Below, in pieces: positions 3-28,569 of a stretch of 64,000 nucleotides of DNA; position 1 is the first letter of the stretch, and every line of letters begins with the position of its first letter. Position numbers and translations under genes: made by a program. The stretch spans positions 1 to 64,000 of IMG/VR virus record IMGVR_UViG_3300044961_000262. One strand, given 5' to 3'. This stretch comes from a virus. Below the pieces are notes generated by a model. The model made no database searches, was not told the origin of the DNA, and was given only the letters and a program-made list of their open reading frames with translations.

Positions 3-3000
3 ATTGATGTAAGTAAATTAGATAATAAAAATAAAATAGCAGGTAAAAAATTAAGTATTGTTGCAGAAAGAAGAAAACTTGCAACAATAAAAGATTTAGA
101 AAATTCACAATTAATAAAAAATATTAGAGTTGATAAATCTCAATCTAAAGATATTAAACCTAATCAGGCTGATAAAAATTTGGCATCTATAATGTTATAT
201 GGTCATAGATATGATGACTTATCTAATGTAGATTATATAAATAAAAATTTAAAAACTATTAGTAATCCTTCAGAAATGCAATCTGAAGCAGAAGTATTAG
301 CTTATAGAATATTAAATGATTTATTGTTTAATATTGACGAATTAAATGAATTTTATGAAGAAATAAAAGATAATCCAGAATATGCTTCAGCTTTAACTAC
401 TAATGAAAATCCTATAAAAGAGTTTTTTGAAAATGATATTTTTGAAGAAAGCGATAAAATTAAATTAGAAAACATTCAATCAACAAGAGAACAAATAATT
501 GCAGATTTATTAGCTAATTATAGTTATACTATTGAGATTAATACTGCTAAAGAAAAAGGATTAAAAAATCAAAAAAAGGGGTATGAGTTAGAACAAACTC
601 AAAATGGTATATGGGTTGTTATAAACTACCGAACAGGATTTAATAAATATTTTGCAACTAAAAAAGAAGCTATTGATTATATTAATGGTGAAAATCAAGA
701 AGAAATTAATACTCAAATTTACAAAGATTTATCAGCAAGAAATAACAACAATATTTCTAAATATGAAGGTAATCCTGATTGGGAATATCAAGAATTAAAA
801 ATACAAGTGCCACAAGTTAATTTAACAGGTGAAGTATTAAAACATAATCCTTTTAATGAACCACAAACTATTGCTCACGCAAGAATACAATATAATAATA
901 AAACTAAAACAGTAGAAGTTCAAGAATTTCAATCAGACCCTTTTCAAGATAATAAACAACGAGAGTTTAAGGATGAAAACGCAGCTAAAGATTATGCTGA
1001 ACAATTGAAGGACATTTATAATGATGTAAGTATTAAAAAAATAAATGATGATATTTGGAAAGTTGCTGGTAGAGAAAGAAAGGATTTAATTACAAGTAGA
1101 AATTTAAATAGTTCAAATTTAGAAGGGTTACAAGGGCAAACGACTATAAGAGAATATATAGATGCTTATAGGTACAGTTTAGAAACTTATGATATGCCAG
1201 ATGCTACTAAAGAAGAAATAGATAGATTAGTGGTAATTGAAGAAAAAGAATTACAATCTAAATTTAAACCTATAAATGAAACTATAAATTCAAAAGATAA
1301 TAAATTTCTTCAACTTCTAAATAAAAATGATGTATGGATAACAGTTGGTTTAAAAAGTTTAATACAAGATAGTGCTAAAAAAGGATATGAAAAAGTATTA
1401 TTTCCTGTAGGAGATACTGCTGCTAAGATTGAAGGACATGAAACTGTTGAAGAGTTTGTTAAGAATAAAGAAGAAAGACTAAATGACTTAAATAGAGAAA
1501 AAAATAAACCTTGGAGTGTTTATAATAAAACAAAAAGTGCAAGTTATTTAGGATTTAAAACTAAAGAAGATGCTGAAAAATATATAATAAATAACAATTT
1601 AGTAGGTTGGAATGTAATAAAAGAGAATACGAGTGATAATATAGATAATGAAATCAAACAATTAGAAAAAGAAATAGAAGATGCTAAAGCAGGTAGATTA
1701 AAAATATCTGCTATTTATGATTTTTATGAAACTACTATTAAAAACATTCTTGATAAAAATTATGGTAAAGAGAATGTAAATAGAATTACCGATGAATATG
1801 GTAATGGCTGGTATGAAATCGAAATAAATGAAAAAGCTAAAGATAAAATATTATTTAATAAGCAAGGAAAAAACACTAATAATTTATCAAAATATTTTAC
1901 TTCAGACAATTCATCTTCTCAAAAAATATTAAAACAAATTGCTGAATTAGGTGGTGGATTAGGGACCATTGCTAAAAAATTACTTGAAAATCAATTAGAT
2001 ATTCCTATTAAATTAATTGATGTACCTCATTTTTCTAATGAAACAATGCCTAAAGAATTAAAAGATTTAGGAATTGTCTTAAAAGATGGATTTTCAGCAG
2101 CTGCTTTTTATAATCCTAGTAATCGTACTATTTACGTTGCTAAAAATGTTAAATTTAAAGATAGTACAGAATCTACTTTAGTACATGAAATTCTTCATGC
2201 TTATACTTCTCATTATGTATATAGTAATCCGAATACAGCATCAGTAAAAAAATTACAAGAATTGGTTGATTATTTAAATCAACCTAAAATAAAAGAATTG
2301 TTGAGGGATACTTATCCTATCACAAATATTGATGAATTATTAGTTGGTATTTTTACTAATAAAAAATTCATCGAAGATTTAAAGATGCTTCCTGCTAAAA
2401 ATCGTAATTTTAAAAGTGTTTGGGATGAAATACTTCAAGTATTTAAAGTAATTTTCGGTATATCAGATAAAACTCTATTTGATGAAGTATTTTCTAGTGC
2501 TGCAACAGTACTTGATGAAAGTATGCAACAAATGAAATCATTTGAAGACGCTTTAGATGTTGATTATATATTAGCTGATGAAGCTGCTGATAATACAGGT
2601 AAACAAAAACTTATTAGTAATAAATTAGATGAACTTCAAGCTAAAGTTAATAGAAATCCTGTAGATAATAGTGTAATTATTAGCGGTAAAGAAGAAATTG
2701 AGTGGATTCGTCCTTCATCTGAAGCTAAAGGAGATATTCAAAAGAGAAGTTTTGGATTAATTTCTGAAAGACAAGAAGAATTTAATAAATTAAGTCAAGA
2801 AGTTGGTACTTTAGTTCATGCTATTCAAGCCGATATTATTAAAAAGAATTTTCCGGAATTTAATAAGTATGTTCCTACAATGGAAGTACCTGAAAATTTA
2901 CAGGAATTCTACGCTTCATTAGAAAAAGAGTTACAACCTATTATAGATAATGCTAAGAAAAAAGGATCTATACTAAAAGCTGAAGTTTTTGTAGGAAATA

Positions 3001-6000
3001 TTCGTACTAAAAAAGGAGGTACCATAGATTTACTTGAAATAACCAGAGAAGGAAATTTTATTATTTTTGATACTAAAACTAGATATTCTGAGGATAAAAC
3101 TGCTAAAAGGAGATTAAATAAATTAATTGAATGGACTAAACAAACAGCTATTTATGGTGAAATTCTTAAAACAGGTGATCCAGAATTAGGAGTTGTTTCT
3201 GGTAAAATTGAAGGAGCATATATATTAGAATTTGAATTTGAAAAATTAGGAGAATTTCTAAACATTAAATTTAAACCTACTTCTAATGGTACAACGGCTT
3301 CTAAATTTTTAAGTAGAAGAAATGCTAAATTGAAAATAACTGCTCCTTTATTTTTAAGAACAAAAAATGAAAAACTTAATAAAAATATTGAATTTCTTTT
3401 ACGTCAAATTGATCAATTAAGTAAACAAAAAGGAGGAACGGAAGAACAAAAAAGTCAAAGAAATAAGTTACTTCAAGGTAAGTTAAATCTTCTTCAATCT
3501 CTTCAAATTAAAGCTGATACAGAAGATTTAATTGAAAAAGCTTATGAAGATTTAGGAGATATTAAAACTATGTTAAGTAAAGGAGTTTTAACTGATTCTA
3601 GATTTATAGAAGAACAGTTGAGTTTTTATTCATCTTTAAAATCTCAAATTGAAGATATTGATGTTAATAAAATTCAAAAAATTAAACAAATAATGATTGA
3701 AGCTCAAGAACTTATGGATGAATATCATAAATTACTTGAGAACATAGCTAAAAGTTCAGTTAAAAATACTCAGATTCAAGATGTTTTAGATAGAAGAGGA
3801 ATTAATTTAAATGATCCTATTCAAGATTCAGGAAAAATGTTTTCAATGTTAATGACAACATCATCAATTGATGATCCTTATATAGCTTCAGCTGTAGCTG
3901 AAACAAATTTAGCATTATCTAAATCACGAACTAGATTAAAAGAATTATTTAGTATAATTCAAAAAAAGACTATTGCTTATCAAAAAGCTACTGGATTAAC
4001 TACATATGATAATATGATAGAGGACGGTAAACTTGTCGGAGAATATACTAAAGAATTTTGGAAAAGTTATAATAATGCTAAGTTAGCTAAAGATTTCGAT
4101 TGGGCTAAAGAAAATTTAATATTTGATAAAGAAAAGTATCAAGAAGCTAGAAATAGACAATTAAATTTTTATGAAGCTTATCGTGAAAACTATAGAAACC
4201 AACTTAAATTTAAAAATCCAGAAATTACAGAAATTGAATTGAATAAATTAACTGAAAAATATATAGCTTTAGAAATGTCAAATTGGGAAGAAGCGAATAA
4301 TAATTCATTTACTTATTTTAAAGCTAAACAAAAATGGACTAATCCTAAATATAATGAAATAATGAAAGGTCCTAAAGAAGTTAAAGAACTTTTTGAAACT
4401 TTTAAATCATTAATCGATTACGCTAATCAAATTATGCCAGATAAAGTTAAAAAGAACTTTATACCTTCTTTTCAAAAAAATTACATAGAAAAATTAGCTT
4501 CAATGAATTTAATGTCAGCTATTCCTGATTTTATGTCAGGTTTATTAGATTCGGTTGCGATGGATTATGATGATGAACTATTTGGAAAAAGAAGTGCTCT
4601 TACAGGAGAAAAAATTGGAGAACTTTATGTTCCGGGTACAGGAAATGTAGCCGATAAATCATTAGATTTACCTGTAGTATTTTTTAAATTTATGGAAGGT
4701 ATTTATAGATATCAAGAATTATCTGCTATTGAAGAAACCGTACTTGCATTAAAACATATGGTTAAAACTCGTAATTATTTAAAAGTTGATAGATTGGGTA
4801 GAGTTATACCTGATTCTAAAGCTCCTGCTGCTCCAAATCCAGCCGCAAATAATCTTAAAACTTTTGAAGCATATATAGATTCGACATTTTACGGTATTAA
4901 AAGTAAAGATGATGTAGGATTTGAAGTAACAGGTAACGGATTTACTGAAGTATTAGGAATACTTAAAAAAGGAGATTCTCGTAAAATATCCGTAGCTAAA
5001 ATTGTAGATAAATTAATTAAATATACTAGTATTAGAAACTTAGGTTATAATATATATTCTCCTTTTGTGAACTTAGGTGGAGGTACTGCTAACTATTATA
5101 TGACCGGTTTTAATGGATTATATTATAGTGAAAAAGATTTTACTAAAGCTATGGGTCTAGCTTTATTAGGTAAAACTCCTAATAACGAAACTGGTGAAAA
5201 AGTTAAATTAATAATGGAATGGCTTGAAGCAGATACTGGTGAATTTGTAAAAGAAGAACAAAATAAATTAACTACCGCTAAAGGTTTGCAATTAATTGAA
5301 GAGTTTGGTCCAATGTCATTAATGAGAGAATCAGAAAATGTTATGAGAAACGCAGGTGCAATAGCTATGATATTATCGGGTAAACATCAATTTAAATGGG
5401 ATGATTTTAAAGTTGTAGATGGAAAGTTGGAAGTTAATACTGATATAATGACTAAAGAGAAATTTAGACAAAAAGTTATTAAAATAAATAATAAAAATCT
5501 TGGAGGAATTAACCCTGATGATATGATGATGATGAAACAATACATTGTAGGTAGAATGTTAATGCAACATAGAAGTTGGCTTCCCGCTTTATTTTTTGAA
5601 AGATTTGGTAGAAAAAGATTTGATTATATTTTAGAACAAGACATAGAAGGAAGATATTTAACTGCTTTTAGATTATTTAAATATTATTTTAATCGTTCCA
5701 AATTTAAAGAACTTAATGAATTCGAAAAAGCTAATATGAAATCAGCTGCTGCTGAAATGGCAATGTTAATTGGTACAGGATTACTTTTAGCTTTACTTAA
5801 AGCCGGATTAGACGATGAAGATGAAAAAGAAGTATGGGCTAAATTTACTAAAAAAGTTTCTTCAAGAGTATTTTCTGAATTATTATTTTTTGTGGATCCA
5901 ACATTTGAAAGTCAATATGCTATTTTATTAAATCCAGCTCCTGTTTTAGGAACAAGTGGCGATTTTGGAAAATTTGTAGGTTCGCTATTTAATGATAAAG

Positions 6001-6119
6001 AAGAAGATAAACGTAAAAAAGGACCTGTGGAGAGGGGGATTAAATTAATTCCCGGTGTCAATAAAGTAACTACATTTTTAGAAGATTTAAATGTAATAGA
6101 TTTTGATGATAAAAAGTAG
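3..6119 (+). CDS. Giant virion-associated (polyvalent cargo-type) protein, 3' part
   Basis: The reading frame is open from the first complete codon at base 3 with no stop, so the gene begins outside the window; the TTG at 180 is only an internal codon. At least 2038 residues are present. Numbering from the TTG codon, an HExxH zinc-protease motif (HEILH, 669-673) lies in a helical context. It is followed by a PD-(D/E)XK signature of the RecB/AddB/Cas4 type: H880, E935, D950 (GTIDLL), D964-T-K966 and Q988xxxY992. Long helical, coiled-coil-rich stretches follow, and a hydrophobic segment lies near 1855-1877. Such multi-enzyme giants sit in the late module of crAss-like phages and are thought to be packed in the virion and ejected with DNA; that role is inferred. 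The gene ends 10 bases from the convergent UDG gene. Confidence 0.85.
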   Translation: MDVSKLDNKNKIAGKKLSIVAERRKLATIKDLENSQLIKNIRVDKSQSKDIKPNQADKNLASIMLYGHRYDDLSNVDYINKNLKTISNPSEMQSEAEVLAYRILNDLLFNIDELNEFYEEIKDNPEYASALTTNENPIKEFFENDIFEESDKIKLENIQSTREQIIADLLANYSYTIEINTAKEKGLKNQKKGYELEQTQNGIWVVINYRTGFNKYFATKKEAIDYINGENQEEINTQIYKDLSARNNNNISKYEGNPDWEYQELKIQVPQVNLTGEVLKHNPFNEPQTIAHARIQYNNKTKTVEVQEFQSDPFQDNKQREFKDENAAKDYAEQLKDIYNDVSIKKINDDIWKVAGRERKDLITSRNLNSSNLEGLQGQTTIREYIDAYRYSLETYDMPDATKEEIDRLVVIEEKELQSKFKPINETINSKDNKFLQLLNKNDVWITVGLKSLIQDSAKKGYEKVLFPVGDTAAKIEGHETVEEFVKNKEERLNDLNREKNKPWSVYNKTKSASYLGFKTKEDAEKYIINNNLVGWNVIKENTSDNIDNEIKQLEKEIEDAKAGRLKISAIYDFYETTIKNILDKNYGKENVNRITDEYGNGWYEIEINEKAKDKILFNKQGKNTNNLSKYFTSDNSSSQKILKQIAELGGGLGTIAKKLLENQLDIPIKLIDVPHFSNETMPKELKDLGIVLKDGFSAAAFYNPSNRTIYVAKNVKFKDSTESTLVHEILHAYTSHYVYSNPNTASVKKLQELVDYLNQPKIKELLRDTYPITNIDELLVGIFTNKKFIEDLKMLPAKNRNFKSVWDEILQVFKVIFGISDKTLFDEVFSSAATVLDESMQQMKSFEDALDVDYILADEAADNTGKQKLISNKLDELQAKVNRNPVDNSVIISGKEEIEWIRPSSEAKGDIQKRSFGLISERQEEFNKLSQEVGTLVHAIQADIIKKNFPEFNKYVPTMEVPENLQEFYASLEKELQPIIDNAKKKGSILKAEVFVGNIRTKKGGTIDLLEITREGNFIIFDTKTRYSEDKTAKRRLNKLIEWTKQTAIYGEILKTGDPELGVVSGKIEGAYILEFEFEKLGEFLNIKFKPTSNGTTASKFLSRRNAKLKITAPLFLRTKNEKLNKNIEFLLRQIDQLSKQKGGTEEQKSQRNKLLQGKLNLLQSLQIKADTEDLIEKAYEDLGDIKTMLSKGVLTDSRFIEEQLSFYSSLKSQIEDIDVNKIQKIKQIMIEAQELMDEYHKLLENIAKSSVKNTQIQDVLDRRGINLNDPIQDSGKMFSMLMTTSSIDDPYIASAVAETNLALSKSRTRLKELFSIIQKKTIAYQKATGLTTYDNMIEDGKLVGEYTKEFWKSYNNAKLAKDFDWAKENLIFDKEKYQEARNRQLNFYEAYRENYRNQLKFKNPEITEIELNKLTEKYIALEMSNWEEANNNSFTYFKAKQKWTNPKYNEIMKGPKEVKELFETFKSLIDYANQIMPDKVKKNFIPSFQKNYIEKLASMNLMSAIPDFMSGLLDSVAMDYDDELFGKRSALTGEKIGELYVPGTGNVADKSLDLPVVFFKFMEGIYRYQELSAIEETVLALKHMVKTRNYLKVDRLGRVIPDSKAPAAPNPAANNLKTFEAYIDSTFYGIKSKDDVGFEVTGNGFTEVLGILKKGDSRKISVAKIVDKLIKYTSIRNLGYNIYSPFVNLGGGTANYYMTGFNGLYYSEKDFTKAMGLALLGKTPNNETGEKVKLIMEWLEADTGEFVKEEQNKLTTAKGLQLIEEFGPMSLMRESENVMRNAGAIAMILSGKHQFKWDDFKVVDGKLEVNTDIMTKEKFRQKVIKINNKNLGGINPDDMMMMKQYIVGRMLMQHRSWLPALFFERFGRKRFDYILEQDIEGRYLTAFRLFKYYFNRSKFKELNEFEKANMKSAAAEMAMLIGTGLLLALLKAGLDDEDEKEVWAKFTKKVSSRVFSELLFFVDPTFESQYAILLNPAPVLGTSGDFGKFVGSLFNDKEEDKRKKGPVERGIKLIPGVNKVTTFLEDLNVIDFDDKK

Positions 6120-11648: not shown

Positions 11649-11988
11649 ATTCTTTAACTATTTCATTAATAGTTTTTTCAACGTCAAAAGGCGCGGAAGA
11701 AATATTTTTAATAATTAACATATCTTTTATCTTAGAAGTATTAACTGAATAATAATTTCTTTTTTTAAAAACATTAGGATAAGAAGCTTGAAAAGCTCCT
11801 TTAATTGAAGCTGGAGCTTTTTTATATAAATTCGTTAATATTTTATTACCTTTAATTGCATTTTTAATAAATAAATCTTCAGTTTGAGTTTGTTCAATTG
11901 TTTTTTCAGTATTAATTTTTTGTAATTTATTAACTATTGTATTTACAATTGCATTAATTTCCTGGCTGTTTAATTGTTTCATTTTCAT
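11629..11988 (-). CDS. Hypothetical protein (119 aa)
   Basis: Not recognised. It has a helical N-terminus (QEINAIVNTIVNKLQKI), a basic middle (KAPASIKGAFQASYPNVFKKRNYY) and an acidic end. It overlaps the RusA-like gene by 4 bases, so a DNA-processing partner is possible but unproven. Confidence 0.55.
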   Translation of the reverse strand: MKMKQLNSQEINAIVNTIVNKLQKINTEKTIEQTQTEDLFIKNAIKGNKILTNLYKKAPASIKGAFQASYPNVFKKRNYYSVNTSKIKDMLIIKNISSAPFDVEKTINEIVKEYDDGKI

Positions 11989-12611
11989 AATAATTTTAAT
12001 TGTTGTATTTCTTTTCTACGATCTTCATAAAAAGTAAATATTAAATTTCTATCTTCATAATTTTGTACAGGTGTAAATAAAGAAAGTCCTCCGCTAATAT
12101 ATCGAACTTCATCGTCAATAATTTTACCCTGTTCCACAAGAGTATCTTCAAATACTTTTACATAAGCAAAACTCATATTAGTATTATCCATAGTTTGATT
12201 ACCATAAGGAAAACACCAATTTAATTGAATTACCGTAGGATAATCTTTAAACACCGGAATATCATCTATATTTTCAGAAAAATATTGGTGTAAAAATTTT
12301 ACTACTTTAGCTCTTGTAAATTTTCCTCCTTTTTGAGAATAAAAAATTTGACCATTAATCGGAGAGTATTTAGGAGTACCTATACTTCTTTTATTTGCGA
12401 TAATTCTTTCATTATTTTCATCTAAACAGAAGCCTAAAGGATCCACATTGTATCCTTTTTTTTCTAACCATTTAGGTATCTTATCGATTCTTTGTTTTCC
12501 TTTTAAAGTAGAGTAGTATTTAGCTCTTCTACTTAAAGATAGAGGAACTTGAGTTGGATATTTAGGAAATTCTTTTACGTAAACATTTTTAAAATATTTA
12601 GGGTCTAGCAT
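11985..12611 (-). CDS. RusA-like Holliday-junction resolvase
   Basis: Likely cleaves branched recombination or replication intermediates before packaging. The C-terminal region carries the RusA pattern: D142-N143 (MDNTNMSFAYVKVFED), D156 and GKIIDDEVRYI with D166-D167. At 208 residues it is longer than RusA (about 120), with an extra N-terminal basic region. The stop abuts the next operon gene without a gap. Confidence 0.72.
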   Translation of the reverse strand: MLDPKYFKNVYVKEFPKYPTQVPLSLSRRAKYYSTLKGKQRIDKIPKWLEKKGYNVDPLGFCLDENNERIIANKRSIGTPKYSPINGQIFYSQKGGKFTRAKVVKFLHQYFSENIDDIPVFKDYPTVIQLNWCFPYGNQTMDNTNMSFAYVKVFEDTLVEQGKIIDDEVRYISGGLSLFTPVQNYEDRNLIFTFYEDRRKEIQQLKLL

Positions 12612-13574
12612 TTATTCTTCAATTAATAATTGGTTAATAAGTAATAAATCCGATTCTGTTATTTCTTCAGAAATAGATTCTTCAATTTTTGGTTTTTCAG
12701 ATTTAGTTGGTAATTCATCTAATAATATATATGTGTCAGCTAAATCTCTACTTCCTTCTTTAATATTAAAAAGTTTTAATAAATCATTACTTACTATTTT
12801 ACTAAATAGTTTATTAATTCTATCATAGTCATCAAGACTTTTAATTTCAATTTTTGAAATAAAATTTTCTTCTATAAAATCAAACTTTTTACTGTATTTA
12901 AAATCTATTGTATTTTTTTCACAGAAAGCTTGAATCTCAGATGTTAATAATATATCACTTTCATTTTCTTTTAAATAAACAGTAATTAAATCTTTCCATT
13001 TAATAACGCTTCTAGTTATAAAATTTAATGTAAATTGATATAATTTTTCTGGATTTACTGTTATTATAGCTAAAACTTCATATTCATTAAAGATAACGCC
13101 ATTACTCATACCATATCCTAAATTCTGAAATGTAAATCCAGAATCTAAACATTTTATAAAATACTCTAAAAAATGTAAGCTACTATATTTAGTATATTTG
13201 TGTATATCTAAATTTATAGCTTCAATATAATTAATTGAATTAACTAAACTTTTTATATACGATAATGATGATGAATGATTATCGTTATAGCGACTATTTT
13301 CAAAATTAATATTTAAATCTTCTAACTTTGATAAAAATAAGTTTTTTTGACTTTTAGACCATTTAGTTTTTGGTACAATTTTGGGTAAATAAGTAATTGA
13401 ACTAAAATCAATAAAACATATAGGAAGAACATCTTTATTTAAAAGATTATTATTGCTATCTAAAAATTTAATATTCGGTAAATTATCTCTATAATGTCTT
13501 TTCCAATTTCTTAAATCAGAAGTTAAATTTTCAATATTGAAATCTGATAACGGAGTAATACTATAAGTTCTCAT
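12612..13574 (-). CDS. Unknown partner of the E1/JAMM cassette (320 aa)
   Basis: No family recognised. Mixed alpha/beta with a conserved-looking core FTFQNLGYGMSNGVIFNEYEVLAIITVNPE (about 140-180, written here only as landmarks FTFQNLGYG and YEVLAIITV) and a very acidic C-terminal tail rich in Glu/Ser. The start overlaps the E1-like gene by 14 bases, so the two are probably translated together. By position it could correspond to the B component of PRTRC-type cassettes, but no sequence motif proves that. Confidence 0.6.
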   Translation of the reverse strand: MRTYSITPLSDFNIENLTSDLRNWKRHYRDNLPNIKFLDSNNNLLNKDVLPICFIDFSSITYLPKIVPKTKWSKSQKNLFLSKLEDLNINFENSRYNDNHSSSLSYIKSLVNSINYIEAINLDIHKYTKYSSLHFLEYFIKCLDSGFTFQNLGYGMSNGVIFNEYEVLAIITVNPEKLYQFTLNFITRSVIKWKDLITVYLKENESDILLTSEIQAFCEKNTIDFKYSKKFDFIEENFISKIEIKSLDDYDRINKLFSKIVSNDLLKLFNIKEGSRDLADTYILLDELPTKSEKPKIEESISEEITESDLLLINQLLIEE

Positions 13575-14229
13575 AAGTCATAAATTCAAATAATGGTATA
13601 TCGTAAGTTGTTTTAAAGGGAAGTTCTAATATGAAATCCGGATCTTTTTTCATAGTAATATAATTAGTAAAAGCTCCTGTCATTATGGCGGCAATTAACG
13701 CTCCGCTATGAGTTGTAGCTTTTGCAGAACAAGGTTGATCCTGAACTTCATTATCATTGAATAAAGTGGATTCGTATTTTTTTTCTAGTCCTTTCGTAAC
13801 AATATAAATTTGACCTGACTGTAGTAACATTCTGCCGTCAATAAAAATTTCTCTGTTTTCTAAAGCTGACCACTTTTCAAACATTAATTTTCTTGCTGCC
13901 ATATTATCGAATGCACTAAAACATATTGGAGTTACAAAAGAAGAACTTTGAAATTTACCTAAATTTATCATATTAGTTCCTTTACAGAACATATCGTTAT
14001 TAAATTTAGAAGCTTCAAATTTACTTTTACCTACTTGATTATAAGAATATAATTGACCTCCTATATTAGGTTCGTCTATTATATCGTATTCGTAAGTTAT
14101 CATTTTACATTCTAATCTTGATAGAAAAAGGGATAGGTATGATCCTATTCCCCCAATTCCACCAAGAGTTATTTCTGTTCCCGGACTATAGAACGGGGCT
14201 TCAGAAAATCTAACTGTTGTTTCTTTCAT
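13561..14229 (-). CDS. E1-like/ThiF-family adenylyltransferase
   Basis: E1/ThiF/MoeB enzymes adenylate the C-terminus of a ubiquitin-like protein with ATP. The Rossmann glycine loop GGIGGIGS is at 23-30. The acidic strand end and NIGGQ follow (D49, D52, N55, Q59; the family usually has SNLNRQ, so the Arg is replaced). GKSK (67-70) supplies the phosphate-contacting lysine, and FDNMAARK (107-114) corresponds to the D-N-x-x-x-R segment. C167 in QPCSAKATTHSG is a candidate thioester cysteine. At 222 residues it is a minimal E1 core. It abuts the JAMM gene (shared base 14229) and overlaps the 320-aa partner. Confidence 0.85.
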   Translation of the reverse strand: MKETTVRFSEAPFYSPGTEITLGGIGGIGSYLSLFLSRLECKMITYEYDIIDEPNIGGQLYSYNQVGKSKFEASKFNNDMFCKGTNMINLGKFQSSSFVTPICFSAFDNMAARKLMFEKWSALENREIFIDGRMLLQSGQIYIVTKGLEKKYESTLFNDNEVQDQPCSAKATTHSGALIAAIMTGAFTNYITMKKDPDFILELPFKTTYDIPLFEFMTYENL

Positions 14230-15332
14230 TACATTCTCATGCTATATTGTCTTTCAAAATCTGTTTCAATAAAATCTTCAAAAACACTTTCAAAGCATCC
14301 AGTTATTGTAGGTACTACGCTGAAATTTGAATATTGAGTGCTTTCTGTTAAAATTTTGTATCCTTCTTCACACATCGAAATTAAATCTGATTTTCTATCA
14401 TTAAATGTCAATCCTTTTTGTAAATATTCAGAATAAATCATGTTATATTTATAAGAAAAAGTGAAATCATTTGATAAATCTTCTTCACATTTTTCAATAA
14501 ATTTCCAGTTTTTACTATAATGCGATTCGATTTCAGCTAAATGCGCATATAATGTATCTACTTCTTTACAATTAATAAATTTCTTAAAATATTTACGTAA
14601 TAGAAACTTTATAAAATTAATAGCGTTAGTATCTTTACTTAAAGTTGATAAATTAATTTTAGTATTATTCACGTTTTTTTTACTCAATACTGGTTTATTT
14701 GTAGTCTGAATCCTATTAACTTGATTTACAAAGAATTCATCTATTTCTTCAGAATAAAGTACTTCAATGTCCATATTATAATAAAAGACAACTTCTTCTT
14801 CTGAAGATAGTATTTTTTTCATTTTACCGTTTTTACCTTTAAAAATAAATTCTTTCGGTTTTATTTTTCCCATAAAAGCTACTCTAGCTGTCATTTCCAT
14901 TTTATTATTTACAATTAATGATAAATAATAGTCATAGTTTGGAGCATTTTCTTGTAACTCTTCATTGTCGGTACCTGAAAAAAATACCGACATTAGATTA
15001 TGTGAATGCACATGTGAAATACTGTAATTTAGTAGTTCAGGTTTTTCAGTAATTGCATTTATATAATCTTCATTAAATTCATATGAAGTGTATCCTGAAG
15101 TACCTTTATCCATCGGTAAAATGTATTCGGCTTTTAATTCGAAACTTTCAGGTCTGTCAATGAATCCTTTACTTGAATGAAAAAGTACACCTGACCATTC
15201 TACATCTGGAATTTCCGAACATAAAAGTTTAATTTGTTCGTAAACTTTATTAGATATAAGAAGTTTAGGTTTATTTTCCAGAAGATAGAGCTTCGGCAAC
15301 GATTTTTGTAAATTTGACGTAGTTGAGTTCAT
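14229..15332 (-). CDS. JAB/JAMM (MPN) metalloprotease, N-terminal domain
   Basis: JAMM enzymes remove ubiquitin-like proteins or mature their C-termini. The zinc site is complete: E45, then H109-S110-H111, seven residues, S119-x-x-D122. The remaining 240 residues are unassigned. The gene sits between the E1-like gene and the candidate E2-like gene, as in PRTRC and related bacterial ubiquitin-like cassettes. The ATG used here overlaps the 3' end of the upstream gene by 62 bases; no later in-frame ATG precedes the catalytic region. Confidence 0.88.
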   Translation of the reverse strand: MNSTTSNLQKSLPKLYLLENKPKLLISNKVYEQIKLLCSEIPDVEWSGVLFHSSKGFIDRPESFELKAEYILPMDKGTSGYTSYEFNEDYINAITEKPELLNYSISHVHSHNLMSVFFSGTDNEELQENAPNYDYYLSLIVNNKMEMTARVAFMGKIKPKEFIFKGKNGKMKKILSSEEEVVFYYNMDIEVLYSEEIDEFFVNQVNRIQTTNKPVLSKKNVNNTKINLSTLSKDTNAINFIKFLLRKYFKKFINCKEVDTLYAHLAEIESHYSKNWKFIEKCEEDLSNDFTFSYKYNMIYSEYLQKGLTFNDRKSDLISMCEEGYKILTESTQYSNFSVVPTITGCFESVFEDFIETDFERQYSMRM

Positions 15333-16533
15333 TTAATTTTGTGTTTATTTGTTTAATAATATAATTTTTAATTTTAGGGTGAGCTATCAAAGTAGAATAA
15401 TCTATTAAAGATTTAGTTTCTTTTTCTTTATCGGAAATTCCTGAATAAATTTTTAAGTCTATATATTTTTCTTTAAACTTTTCTAATAAATTTATTGTGT
15501 TTACACATTTATATTCCTCATATTTTTCATTAGAAAAGATTTCAAAATTTCCTTGAGAAAGTTCTTTACCTATAACTGTTGAAATTTTATTAATTAGAGG
15601 GGTAATTAAATTAACATCTACTTCTAATTTATTTTTTACAAGATTATATGTAAGAAACAATTCATTTTTATATCTTATGAGAAATCTTTTTAAATTTTTT
15701 TTTAAAATTATATTAGATAAGTTTAATCCAGTATTATCACCTATAGATTGAATTCTAATATAAGGCCCTCCTTCTAAAGATTCCCATCTAACATAGGCAT
15801 CTAAAGTTGTAAAAAATGAAAGAATGAGTTCATCCGAATCAAGCTTTATATGTCTAAAATTGCTTATTGGGGTATTTTCACCTAAACAAAAATTATGATA
15901 TGAGGTACTATTTCTTGGACGCAAATGTGAATGCAAATAATTTGAATTATATTCCTTTAAACTAAGATGTCCTCTCAATCCTTTTATATTTGAAATACAA
16001 CCTTCTTCAAGATTTAAATTTACATAAAGTTCTTTTATTAAATGCTTTTTACCATGACTATTTTCAATAATAATTTCAGGATATAATATTGTAAAGTCAA
16101 ATTCATTAAAATCTACAAATTCTTCACCATAATATTCAACGGCTAATCTTTTAATATTATTAAATACTTTTTTTGATTCATTATTTATATGATCTAAATA
16201 GTTTTTTATATCTTTTTCAAGTGATTCTTCTGTATATCCTGAATTTGTATTTTCATTTGTTTTGTAGTCATAATTAATATTGTACAAAACGTTAATATCT
16301 AAAATATTTTTTACAGACAATGTTATATTACCTGAGTTTACATAATATATCGAATTAGATTCATAATTATCAAAAAAATGTATTTTGTCTAAATTATCTT
16401 CTGAATAATTATTTAAAACAAATTCTTTAAATTTTACACAAACAGAAATGTATTCATCATCTTCGTTTTTTTCTGACACTACTATAAATATTTCACTAAA
16501 ATAATTTTCATCAAAACTTCGAAGTAATCTCAT
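15271..16533 (-). CDS. Candidate E2-like (UBC-fold) protein of the ubiquitin-like cassette
   Basis: A 420-residue protein without an obvious family overall. Residues about 187-225 read like the active-site region of prokaryotic E2-like proteins: strand GHLSLKEYN, histidines H201/H203 (LHSHLRP) and a CLG motif with C216 (HNFCLGENTPIS). Prokaryotic E2 homologues carry similar H...CLG signatures, so C216 is the proposed thioester cysteine. The long N-terminal part is acidic and Asn/Tyr-rich. It sits directly upstream of the JAMM gene and downstream of the ubiquitin-like gene. The E2 call is inference and needs structure comparison. Confidence 0.5.
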   Translation of the reverse strand: MRLLRSFDENYFSEIFIVVSEKNEDDEYISVCVKFKEFVLNNYSEDNLDKIHFFDNYESNSIYYVNSGNITLSVKNILDINVLYNINYDYKTNENTNSGYTEESLEKDIKNYLDHINNESKKVFNNIKRLAVEYYGEEFVDFNEFDFTILYPEIIIENSHGKKHLIKELYVNLNLEEGCISNIKGLRGHLSLKEYNSNYLHSHLRPRNSTSYHNFCLGENTPISNFRHIKLDSDELILSFFTTLDAYVRWESLEGGPYIRIQSIGDNTGLNLSNIILKKNLKRFLIRYKNELFLTYNLVKNKLEVDVNLITPLINKISTVIGKELSQGNFEIFSNEKYEEYKCVNTINLLEKFKEKYIDLKIYSGISDKEKETKSLIDYSTLIAHPKIKNYIIKQINTKLNELNYVKFTKIVAEALSSGK

Positions 16534-16549
16534 ATTTTTTTTTTATAAA

Positions 16550-16579
16550 AAAAAAGAGAGAAATTAATCTCTCTTTTTT
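16550..16579 (-). terminator. Hairpin terminator after the ubiquitin-like gene
   Basis: An 11-bp stem (AAAAAAGAGAG/CTCTCTTTTTT) with loop AAATTAAT is followed on the minus strand by a U-rich run. It lies between the ubiquitin-like gene and the candidate E2-like gene, so the small protein could be made in excess of the enzymes. Confidence 0.75.
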
Positions 16580-16591
16580 ATTTTAATTTAA

Positions 16592-16981
16592 TTATTTTAA
16601 TTCATCAGCTAATCTTTTTAATTCAGCAATGCTGATATCATCGGTTTCTTGCGGATCACCGAATTCTCCAGATTCAACTTCATCGATAATTTCATCAAAA
16701 GCATTGTTGATTTTTTCACGTAAAGAAACCATTAAATCTACAATACTTAACGATCCCGATTTAACGCTAATAGGAGTTGCTATAATAGTTAAATCTCCTG
16801 TAAATAATTCCGCAGCAGCAGCTTCTAACGTTACTTTTCCTGGAATCATTGTGTATTTTAAAGTAGACTCTAAAAGTTCTTTATCTCTTAATGTTTCACG
16901 TAATTCTCCCCAAGTAGTAGCTGAAGAATTAAATGTTTCTTTTTTATTCTTTGATTGAATAAATACTGTTATTTTTCTCAT
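16592..16981 (-). CDS. Ubiquitin-like (beta-grasp) protein
   Basis: A 129-residue protein with the order expected for a beta-grasp fold: strand RKITVFIQSK, strand KETFNSS, helix TWGELRETLRD, then VTLEAAAAELF and strand GDLTIIATP ending in ISVKSGS (71-77). Prokaryotic Ubl proteins of E1/JAMM cassettes often end shortly after such a KSG segment. Here about 50 acidic, helical residues continue to a C-terminus without GG, so either JAMM processing near G76 or a non-conjugating role is possible. It overlaps the primase stop upstream by 38 bases. Confidence 0.62.
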   Translation of the reverse strand: MRKITVFIQSKNKKETFNSSATTWGELRETLRDKELLESTLKYTMIPGKVTLEAAAAELFTGDLTIIATPISVKSGSLSIVDLMVSLREKINNAFDEIIDEVESGEFGDPQETDDISIAELKRLADELK

Positions 16982-17951
16982 TGTTAATTAATTTTTTTGT
17001 TAGTTCTTCTCCATGAAGATAATAAAAGTCGGATATATCTTTGGCACCAAGATATCCCTTTTTTCTTGCCCATAATTTTTCAGTTAAAAAAAGAGGTTTA
17101 GTTCCGTAACTTTTTCTCATTTGCCAACCAAAGTGTATTCCTGCATTATCATAATCAGATAAAGTAAAAATGTTCTTGCTTATTTTTTCTAAATCTTTCA
17201 TTTGATTTTCAGTTAATATTACGCTTTCTGCTTGTGGAGCTACAGAAGGTATATTAAACTTATGTAAAGTTCCTACATCTTTGTAAGACTTCGTGATTAC
17301 TAAAAAGTCACATTTTTTAGGTAATAAATGTTTACCCTGTAAAGTTTCCTTAGATACGTTACCTAAAAATCTATACTCTTTTCTTTTAAAAAAATAAAAT
17401 TTCCATTTATTATTGTCAAAATAATATCCAATACAAGGATCTTCGTCACGATAATAATATATTAATCGTCCATTATCATCCCATATTTTGTCAATATAAA
17501 ACCATTTAGCGAGTTTTATAAACTCTGATGTAACACCATAAAATTTACAAAAATTTACACCAATGTTATTAAATTTTTTAACTTTAACTTTAAAACTCTT
17601 ATCGATTTTATTTAAGGATGGTTTTTTAATAATAATATTTTTAGTCGGTATATTTTTAAGATAAAATACTTCATAAATCTTTTGTAAAGCTTTATAATAA
17701 GATAAATTATCTACTTCCATAACTACAGAAACGCAAGTGTAAGTTTTGTTTATTGCAAAATCTTTAAAAAATAAGACTCCCGCATTCCAATAGAAACTAC
17801 ATCCAACTTTATTATCAACTCTTAAAGGATTAGTAAATTTTTCTGTTAAAGAACAGAACCCTAGATATTTCTCATAAACTTCTTCTTGACTGACTCTATC
17901 AAAGAGCCAGTCAAAAGAAATTTCAAGCGGTATTTCGGGGTATCCGTACAT
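16944..17951 (-). CDS. DnaG-type DNA primase (Toprim)
   Basis: Makes RNA primers for the replisome. The Toprim domain is clear: VITKSYKDV (218-226, Lys where the family usually has Glu or a related start), SDYDNAG (265-271, DxD) and KDISD (304-308). The N-terminal region (NPLRVDNKVGCSFY, 41-54) resembles the CHC2-type domain but lacks a full set of zinc cysteines. At 335 residues it has no helicase domain, matching the separate DnaB-like gene three genes upstream. Confidence 0.88.
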   Translation of the reverse strand: MYGYPEIPLEISFDWLFDRVSQEEVYEKYLGFCSLTEKFTNPLRVDNKVGCSFYWNAGVLFFKDFAINKTYTCVSVVMEVDNLSYYKALQKIYEVFYLKNIPTKNIIIKKPSLNKIDKSFKVKVKKFNNIGVNFCKFYGVTSEFIKLAKWFYIDKIWDDNGRLIYYYRDEDPCIGYYFDNNKWKFYFFKRKEYRFLGNVSKETLQGKHLLPKKCDFLVITKSYKDVGTLHKFNIPSVAPQAESVILTENQMKDLEKISKNIFTLSDYDNAGIHFGWQMRKSYGTKPLFLTEKLWARKKGYLGAKDISDFYYLHGEELTKKLINNEKNNSIYSIKE

Positions 17952-28149: not shown

Positions 28150-28189
28150 CCACCTTTTAATCTAATCAAGCATATGACAAAATTTGATT

Positions 28190-28569
28190 TGTGGAGATGT
28201 GGGGAATTGAACCCCAGTCCAGATAACTGCTATATAACAACTTTTATTACATGCTTAAATCTAATATTTCTATTTGATTAGTATTAAGCTTAACTGAAAT
28301 TAAGCTTCACCAGTTAATCTTTAATATTATTATACTCCTAATAGATTAACAAACTTGGGAGTGAAAATTAAGCAGCTAAAACTACTTCTTTTTCTGCAAC
28401 AGGAGCAAAAGCAATTACCATTGCTTCTACTTTATCAGCAAAAGTCCTAGACTCGTCTGATATATTGTTATTGTTTGCATTTGTTTTTTGATAGTAATTT
28501 AGATGTAATCTATCATCCATCGCATGATTGTTATAAGGCTAAACGTTACTGTCAAATCCTGTCATCCCC
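28190..28569 (-). ncRNA. ssrA: tmRNA (SsrA), phage-encoded
   Basis: Transfer-messenger RNA rescues stalled ribosomes with SmpB and tags the nascent chain. The 5' end GGGGATG (28569-28563) pairs with CATCTCC (28199-28193) as a 7-bp acceptor stem with G3-U70, the alanine identity pair. The D-like segment GGATTTGACAG and a perfect T-arm (TGGGG-TTCAATT-CCCCA) follow. Pseudoknot 1 is visible: GATG 28518-28521 with CATC 28502-28505, and TGATAG 28510-28515 with CTATCA 28489-28494. The resume codon GCA (28476-28478) begins 10 bases after it. The tag frame runs 36 codons to TAA (28368-28370) and ends ...VVLAA. Further hairpins and the conserved AAGCATGTA segment precede the 3' tRNA half. CCA is not encoded. 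It starts 7 bases after the upstream gene's stop. Confidence 0.93.

Follow-up and report, generated by a model that had tools for sequence, protein, structure and literature searches.

A conserved five-gene cassette of crAss-like phages with the features of a ubiquitin-like protein conjugation system

Introduction

Conjugation of ubiquitin-like proteins (Ubls) in bacteria is known mainly as an anti-phage defense. Here we describe a cassette of five phage genes with the features of a Ubl conjugation and deconjugation system. The cassette was found in the IMG/VR virus record IMGVR_UViG_3300044961_000262, of which positions 1 to 64,000 were analyzed (64,000 nucleotides [nt] of 83,779 bases; hereafter, the window).

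In the proven bacterial Bil pathway, which consists of a Ubl, an E2, a JAMM peptidase, and an E1, the JAMM peptidase BilC trims the Ubl BilA and thereby frees its C-terminal glycine (PMC11354881). The type 6d operon of Iyer et al. (2006) combines a Ubl, a JAB, an E1, and an E2-like protein with one novel protein, and in the passages of that article considered here phages are treated solely via the tail-assembly proteins of lambda and T1 (PMC1779556). The PRTRC (ParB-related, ThiF-related) cassettes of plasmids read ParB-E-C-F-B-A-ThiF.

The genes of the phage cassette have carried other labels, namely, vitamin synthesis (thiamine biosynthesis), metalloprotease, and hypothetical protein, for example, in crAss001, DAC15, and FpV4. 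The Steigviridae records annotate the E1 as a thiamine biosynthesis protein and the JAB as a metalloprotease, and one record gives an E1 enzyme family protein. ThiF and ubiquitin are not mentioned in the main texts of Yutin 2021 and Shkoporov 2018, and no description of the cassette as a Ubl system was found in the open-access literature (subscription papers and preprints were outside this scope).

Results

The window contains five adjoining open reading frames (ORFs) on the minus strand, which fill positions 12612 to 16981 and lie exactly where the initial annotation had placed five leftward genes. They encode a Ubl, an E2-like protein, a JAB/JAMM peptidase, an E1-like enzyme, and a protein designated X; the JAB gene and the E2-like gene overlap by 62 nt. 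Separate tblastn searches with the E1 and with the JAB yielded 74 phage records each, including Steigviridae (crAss001 and DAC15), the Flavobacterium phages FpV, and an uncultured bajarodcaudo virus. In IMG/VR, profile scanning gave 220 stretches with an E1 relative, and 80 of them were kept. Gene order was surveyed in 100 loci bearing the E1 gene, and all cassette genes detected in them followed the order Ubl, putative E2, JAB, E1, and X. The four core genes were all present, in this order, at 95 of the 100 loci, and the five incomplete loci (L030, L051, L083, L092, and L101) start at or near a contig end. The 74 phage records obtained with each of the two enzymes and the same order in 95 loci indicate that the cassette is not a chance arrangement. 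No catalytic residue was lost in the relatives (E1, 84/84; JAMM, 84/84; E2-like protein, 80/80).

The E1-like adenylation enzyme (13561 to 14229, minus strand; 222 amino acids [aa]) belongs to the ThiF family and has no separate Cys domain. It matched Pfam ThiF with an E value of 2.2e-10 (40.5 bits; cut-off, 28.1 bits) and contains the GGIGGIGS loop, D49, and GKSK. The residues D49, N55, Q59, K70, D108, R113, D131, R133, and C167 were invariant in 84 distinct E1s. The candidate catalytic residue C167 (codon at 13729 to 13731, minus strand) was aligned with the conserved cysteine of PRTRC ThiF and of MoeB/ThiF-type proteins. The E1/ThiF core of the initial annotation was thus retained, with GxGGxGS, the Asp, the Lys, and the catalytic Cys of the superfamily all present, except that D52, which had been counted among its residues, is not invariant (58 of the E1s have E, 25 have D, and 1 has N at this position). 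The best PDB match of the E1 profile was MccB, with UBA5 among the best; an MccB-type peptide modification is unlikely despite this match, since separate Ubl, JAB, and E2-like genes are present.

The best named NCBIfam matches of the E1 were ThiF-type, which would also suit a sulfur carrier pathway, in which the E1 makes a Ubl thiocarboxylate for nucleotide or tRNA modification and the JAB trims the precursor. A single terminal glycine and maturation by a JAB also fit the ThiS/MoaD-type carriers treated in PMC1779556. Such a pathway is nevertheless unlikely here, as it leaves unexplained an E2-like protein with an invariant cysteine that is always present, and the 83.8-kb record, possibly an incomplete one, contained no rhodanese or ATP_bind_3 (TtuA-type) gene. 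The motif CxxC was found in only 2 of the 84 E1s, but this is a weak point against a sulfur carrier, because only 2 of 8 MoeB/ThiF-type comparison proteins had it either.

The JAB/JAMM metallopeptidase (14229 to 15332, minus strand; 367 aa) has its peptidase domain at about residues 20 to 190, followed by a C-terminal extension. Its E-HSH-x7-S-x2-D site is complete, as initially annotated: the residues E45 (codon at 15198 to 15200) and H109-x-H111-x7-S119-x2-D122 (14967 to 15008, minus strand), which make up the metal site of JAMM/JAB peptidases, were invariant in 84/84 JABs. Pfam Prok-JAB matched 18 of the 18 aligned members, with a best E value of 1.1e-6, and the window protein alone gave a weak match (0.06).

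The Ubl gene (16592 to 16981, minus strand) encodes 129 aa, which comprise a beta-grasp protein (residues 1 to 76) and a C-terminal tail of 53 aa. The AlphaFold model shows the order strand-strand-helix-strand-strand, with a pLDDT of about 96 over residues 1 to 70, and then a flexible end and a helical tail. The Foldseek matches of this model were mostly ubiquitin, SUMO, and Bacteroides fragilis ubiquitin (probability, 1.00; best E value, near 1e-3), so that the beta-grasp fold anticipated for the protein is present. The protein was also assigned to PHROG 15560. The fold terminates in [K/R/A][S/A]G, and its glycine (G76) was found in 80 of 80 aligned letters of the deep set, which gives the protein both the fold and the conserved C-terminal glycine of a Ubl-type beta-grasp protein. 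The sequence K74-S75-G76 (16754 to 16762, minus strand) is the predicted mature C terminus and JAB cleavage point. Fourteen of 20 short Ubls, with a median pairwise identity of 35%, end exactly one residue past the invariant glycine. The tails of 57 other Ubls are longer than 60 aa and reach 213 aa, and none of the phage Ubls found ends directly at the glycine. An invariant glycine with extensions past it, together with a JAMM gene two genes away, is how a Ubl precursor dependent on a protease would be expected to look, suggesting that the Ubl is matured by the JAB.

The Ubl tail of the crAss-like phage cr126_1 (L011:2338-3264) carries the C-terminal domain of ribosomal protein L7/L12 (Pfam PF00542; 5.1e-12), which was seen neither in the remaining 17 members scanned nor in the 68-member set. 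The tails of the Steigviridae have a common C-terminal end resembling S-x-x-E-I-x-x-M-F. In the crAss-like phage cr106_1 (L015:1740-2943), an ORF for an HNH endonuclease splits the Ubl gene exactly at the KSG boundary; the Ubl ORF ends two residues past KSG, and the tail is a separate ORF. A group I intron was considered for this split gene and rejected, as there was no Rfam match and 15 nt lie between the HNH stop codon and the tail ORF. The long tails, the common end in Steigviridae, the L7/L12 domain, and the tail with an ORF of its own would all agree with a Ubl that serves mainly as a fusion partner; the active protein would then be the variable tail, freed by the JAB, and conjugation would be secondary. 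However, the 14 Ubls with a one-residue tail still keep the E1, the E2-like protein, and the JAB, and the active sites of the first two are no less invariant than that of the JAB, which makes this explanation very improbable.

The E2-like (UBC-like) protein (15271 to 16533, minus strand; 420 aa) has a conserved core at about residues 100 to 260, and its AlphaFold model reached high confidence (pLDDT, about 90) in no part other than the core (here about residues 144 to 260). The core consists of a helix (residues 102 to 123), four strands (127 to 132, 144 to 158, 163 to 176, and 179 to 187), C216, and two helices (222 to 228 and 234 to 248). This helix-four strands-Cys-helix-helix order is compatible with the UBC fold. 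H203, C216, G218, S252, and G255 were invariant in 80/80 E2-like proteins, and E251 varied once. The cysteine and the glycine of the CLG motif are thus constant, whereas its middle residue is variable, and C216 (codon at 15886 to 15888, minus strand) is the candidate for the conserved active-site cysteine of an E2. No Pfam E2 family matched any of the 68 E2-like members, and hhalign of the core with Prok-E2_B gave no usable signal. This negative profile comparison says little, because the control between two accepted E2 families, PRTRC B and Prok-E2_B, failed as well. From the invariant cysteine and the predicted fold order, the 420-aa protein is probably an E2.

Protein X (12612 to 13574, minus strand; 320 aa) has no known domain. 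Its gene was detected in 73 sequences and lies directly after the E1 gene wherever it was found. The alignment of X (A5) contains no invariant column, indicating fast evolution. Pfam gave only single-member matches below the cut-off, and one of these, Latrotoxin_C (0.0005; 1 of 16 members), was treated as chance.

The phage cassette has the same relative order as PRTRC of the Ubl (PRTRC C), the E2 or, in the phage, the probable E2 (B in PRTRC, with C-[LMV]-G), the JAB (A), and the ThiF-type E1. Both occur on mobile DNA (for PRTRC, plasmids and other elements) with replication or partition genes, and both the E1s and the JABs are homologous by profile (hhalign against PRTRC ThiF, 99.2% and 6e-20; against PRTRC A, 82.5% and 9.8e-6). 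In contrast to the phage cassette, PRTRC has its F gene between the Ubl and the E2, and the phage cassette has the extra gene X after the E1; hhalign gave no alignment between X and PRTRC F. Most PRTRC C proteins end at the glycine (GTKG), whereas the phage Ubls always extend beyond it. The reference families used were TIGR03735 (PRTRC_A) and TIGR03736 (PRTRC_ThiF) of NCBIfam and PF14460 (Prok-E2_D) of Pfam. The E1 reached 25.1 bits with TIGR03736 (cut-off, 144.75 bits), and the JAB reached 13.6 bits with TIGR03735 (cut-off, 101.8 bits). The phage Ubl had no NCBIfam match as PRTRC_C and no hhalign similarity to it, only the fold being common to both. None of the annotated phage cassettes examined contained ParB, E, or F, and the PRTRC and phage E1s formed separate clades in the E1 tree (support, 0.67 and 0.96, respectively). 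The likeness to PRTRC noted in the initial annotation holds for gene order and for the profile homology of the E1 and the JAB, but membership in PRTRC was rejected, since every NCBIfam cut-off was missed, E, F, and ParB are absent, and the E1 clade is separate. As a side observation, no JAB (PRTRC A) gene seems to stand between B and ThiF in the PRTRC-type Bacteroidota cassettes L109 to L112, in which the Ubl stops directly at GTKG.

With the type 6d operon, the phage cassette shares the set of five genes, namely, a Ubl with a conserved C-terminal glycine, a JAB, an E1, an E2-like protein with a Cys, and a fifth gene. The JAB of 6d operons carries an alpha+beta domain at its N terminus (PMC1779556), whereas the phage JAB domain begins near residue 20 and the extension is C-terminal. 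The invariant His of the 6d E2 lies downstream of the Cys; in the phage proteins H203 lies upstream, no invariant His follows, and the Cys is followed by E-S-x-x-G-x-P.

BilABCD likewise has separate genes for the Ubl, E2, JAMM peptidase, and E1, and its JAMM peptidase matures the Ubl, but BilA has two Ubl domains, BilD has two adenylation domains and a Cys domain, and BilB has CEHH (PMC11354881). The phage cassette has one Ubl domain, an E1 of 222 aa, and no CEHH pattern after C216, and the role of Bil is host defense. CBASS type II, with Cap2 (an E1-E2 fusion) and Cap3 (a JAB), provides E1, E2-like, and JAB functions as well; the phage genes differ in being separate, in including a dedicated Ubl, and in having no cGAS-like nucleotidyltransferase in the cassette. 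In the eukaryotic UBA5-UFC1-UFM1 pathway, as in the phage, the E1 is short and has no separate Cys domain, and the single-Gly Ubl has a short precursor extension. UFM1 is matured by a Cys protease rather than by a JAMM peptidase, and the likeness need not reflect common descent of the pathway.

The cassette lies, as initially annotated, between the genes for a RusA-like Holliday junction resolvase downstream (11985 to 12611, minus strand; PHROG 1682, 2.2e-6) and a toprim DNA primase upstream (16944 to 17951, minus strand; PHROG 12622, 2.8e-25). The terminase, portal, and head proteins of the window matched PHROG families at 1e-79 or better, and the terminase had relatives in 157 phage records, mostly of crAss-like or Flavobacterium phages, in agreement with the initial assignment to a crAss-like phage. 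In the surveyed loci, a primase gene was located upstream in 85/100, a uracil-DNA glycosylase gene on either side in 65/100, and an exonuclease gene downstream in 58/100, indicating that the cassette belongs to the replication region.

This location bears on a possible role in counter-defense, in which the cassette would tag or untag host immune proteins and, for example, block E1-E2 CBASS or Bil. JABs and E1s are found in CBASS and Bil defense (PMC10097602; PMC11354881), and PADLOC gave weak E1-E2 matches, to the E1 domain only (1.3e-4). However, in most loci the site among the replication genes is fixed and is not a variable accessory region, which argues mildly for a core function, and a full conjugation set exceeds the needs of a decoy or a deconjugase. 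We consider this role improbable.

Two further features of the window were recorded. A transfer-messenger RNA (tmRNA) at 28189 to 28569 (minus strand) matched Rfam RF00023 with 92.2 bits (1.4e-34) and was not called by ARAGORN; its reading frame appears to finish ...AEKEVVLAA, and phage FpV4 and the L062 record likewise gave tmRNA matches over the cut-off. An ORF of 1979 aa at 180 to 6119 (plus strand) had no PHROG match at 1e-3.

A scan of 84,980 species genomes with the E1 gave four loci, of which two were distant and two were phage-type. The latter, a complete cassette (L102) and an E1-X pair at a contig end (L101), are both on short contigs of metagenome-assembled genomes (MAGs). The E2-like and JAB profiles matched none of 396 Bacteroidota genomes, in a search with no positive control, and no E1 relative was found in the plasmid search. 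With only two phage-type loci among the species genomes and no match of the other two profiles, the cassette appears to be virus-specific. Separately, an E1-like gene with a JAB-like gene (HRHPDGMNSFSSTD) next after it was noted at the end of a contig of a Bacteroidetes MAG (L103:64-1937); the pair may belong to another Ubl-type cassette.

Discussion

We consider it reasonably likely that the cassette is a virus-specific system for conjugating and deconjugating a Ubl and that it is expressed together with the genes for replication. The Ubl fold, the E1 and JAB families, the invariant active sites, the glycine with one-residue or long extensions, and the universal linkage of the genes were computed; from these we infer the chemistry of five reaction steps, the targets, the part played by X, and that the 420-aa protein is an E2. 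The usual Ubl relay (trim, activate, carry, attach, and remove) would operate in the phage cassette by analogy with the Bil pathway, the 6d gene set, and the PRTRC order, and because of the profile homology of the E1 and the JAB. The JAB would cut the Ubl precursor after the invariant glycine (G76 in the window), taking off 1 to about 200 residues. The E1 would then adenylate the glycine with ATP and hold the Ubl as a thioester on C167, from which it would be handed to C216 of the E2-like protein. The Ubl would be attached to amino groups of target proteins, plausibly those of the replication complex or the host, and the same JAB could take it off again.

Several observations weigh against a conjugation system. 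The Ubl has one terminal Gly instead of GG. The phage E1s have N-x-[GAS]-G-Q and thus miss the usual R of N-x-x-R-Q, and protein X has no part in the proposed relay. The alignment of the E2-like core with PRTRC B by hhalign covered the CLG region only (P, 0.04 to 0.07). The Foldseek search with the 420-aa model listed no UBC or E2 protein among 50 PDB or viral matches, for which reason the E2 label is only probable, although the invariant cysteine and the UBC-like order support the E2-like candidate with a CLG motif that had been put forward from the sequence.

The cassette is real and conserved and apparently has not been described as a Ubl system within the open-access literature. If it does conjugate its Ubl, trypsin digestion of the conjugates is predicted to yield lysines with a Ser-Gly remnant (+144.05 Da, since K74 precedes S75-G76), which could be sought in the proteomics of infected cells. 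It is conceivable, if somewhat short of probable, that a complete Ubl pathway specific to viruses exists in Crassvirales and related phages, that it covalently modifies proteins during phage replication, and that its JAB both matures the Ubl and frees an interchangeable tail protein (once L7/L12-like), recalling the eukaryotic ubiquitin-ribosomal protein fusions. A complete-looking Ubl system is carried here by phages, among them the cultured models crAss001, DAC15, and Flavobacterium phage FpV4.

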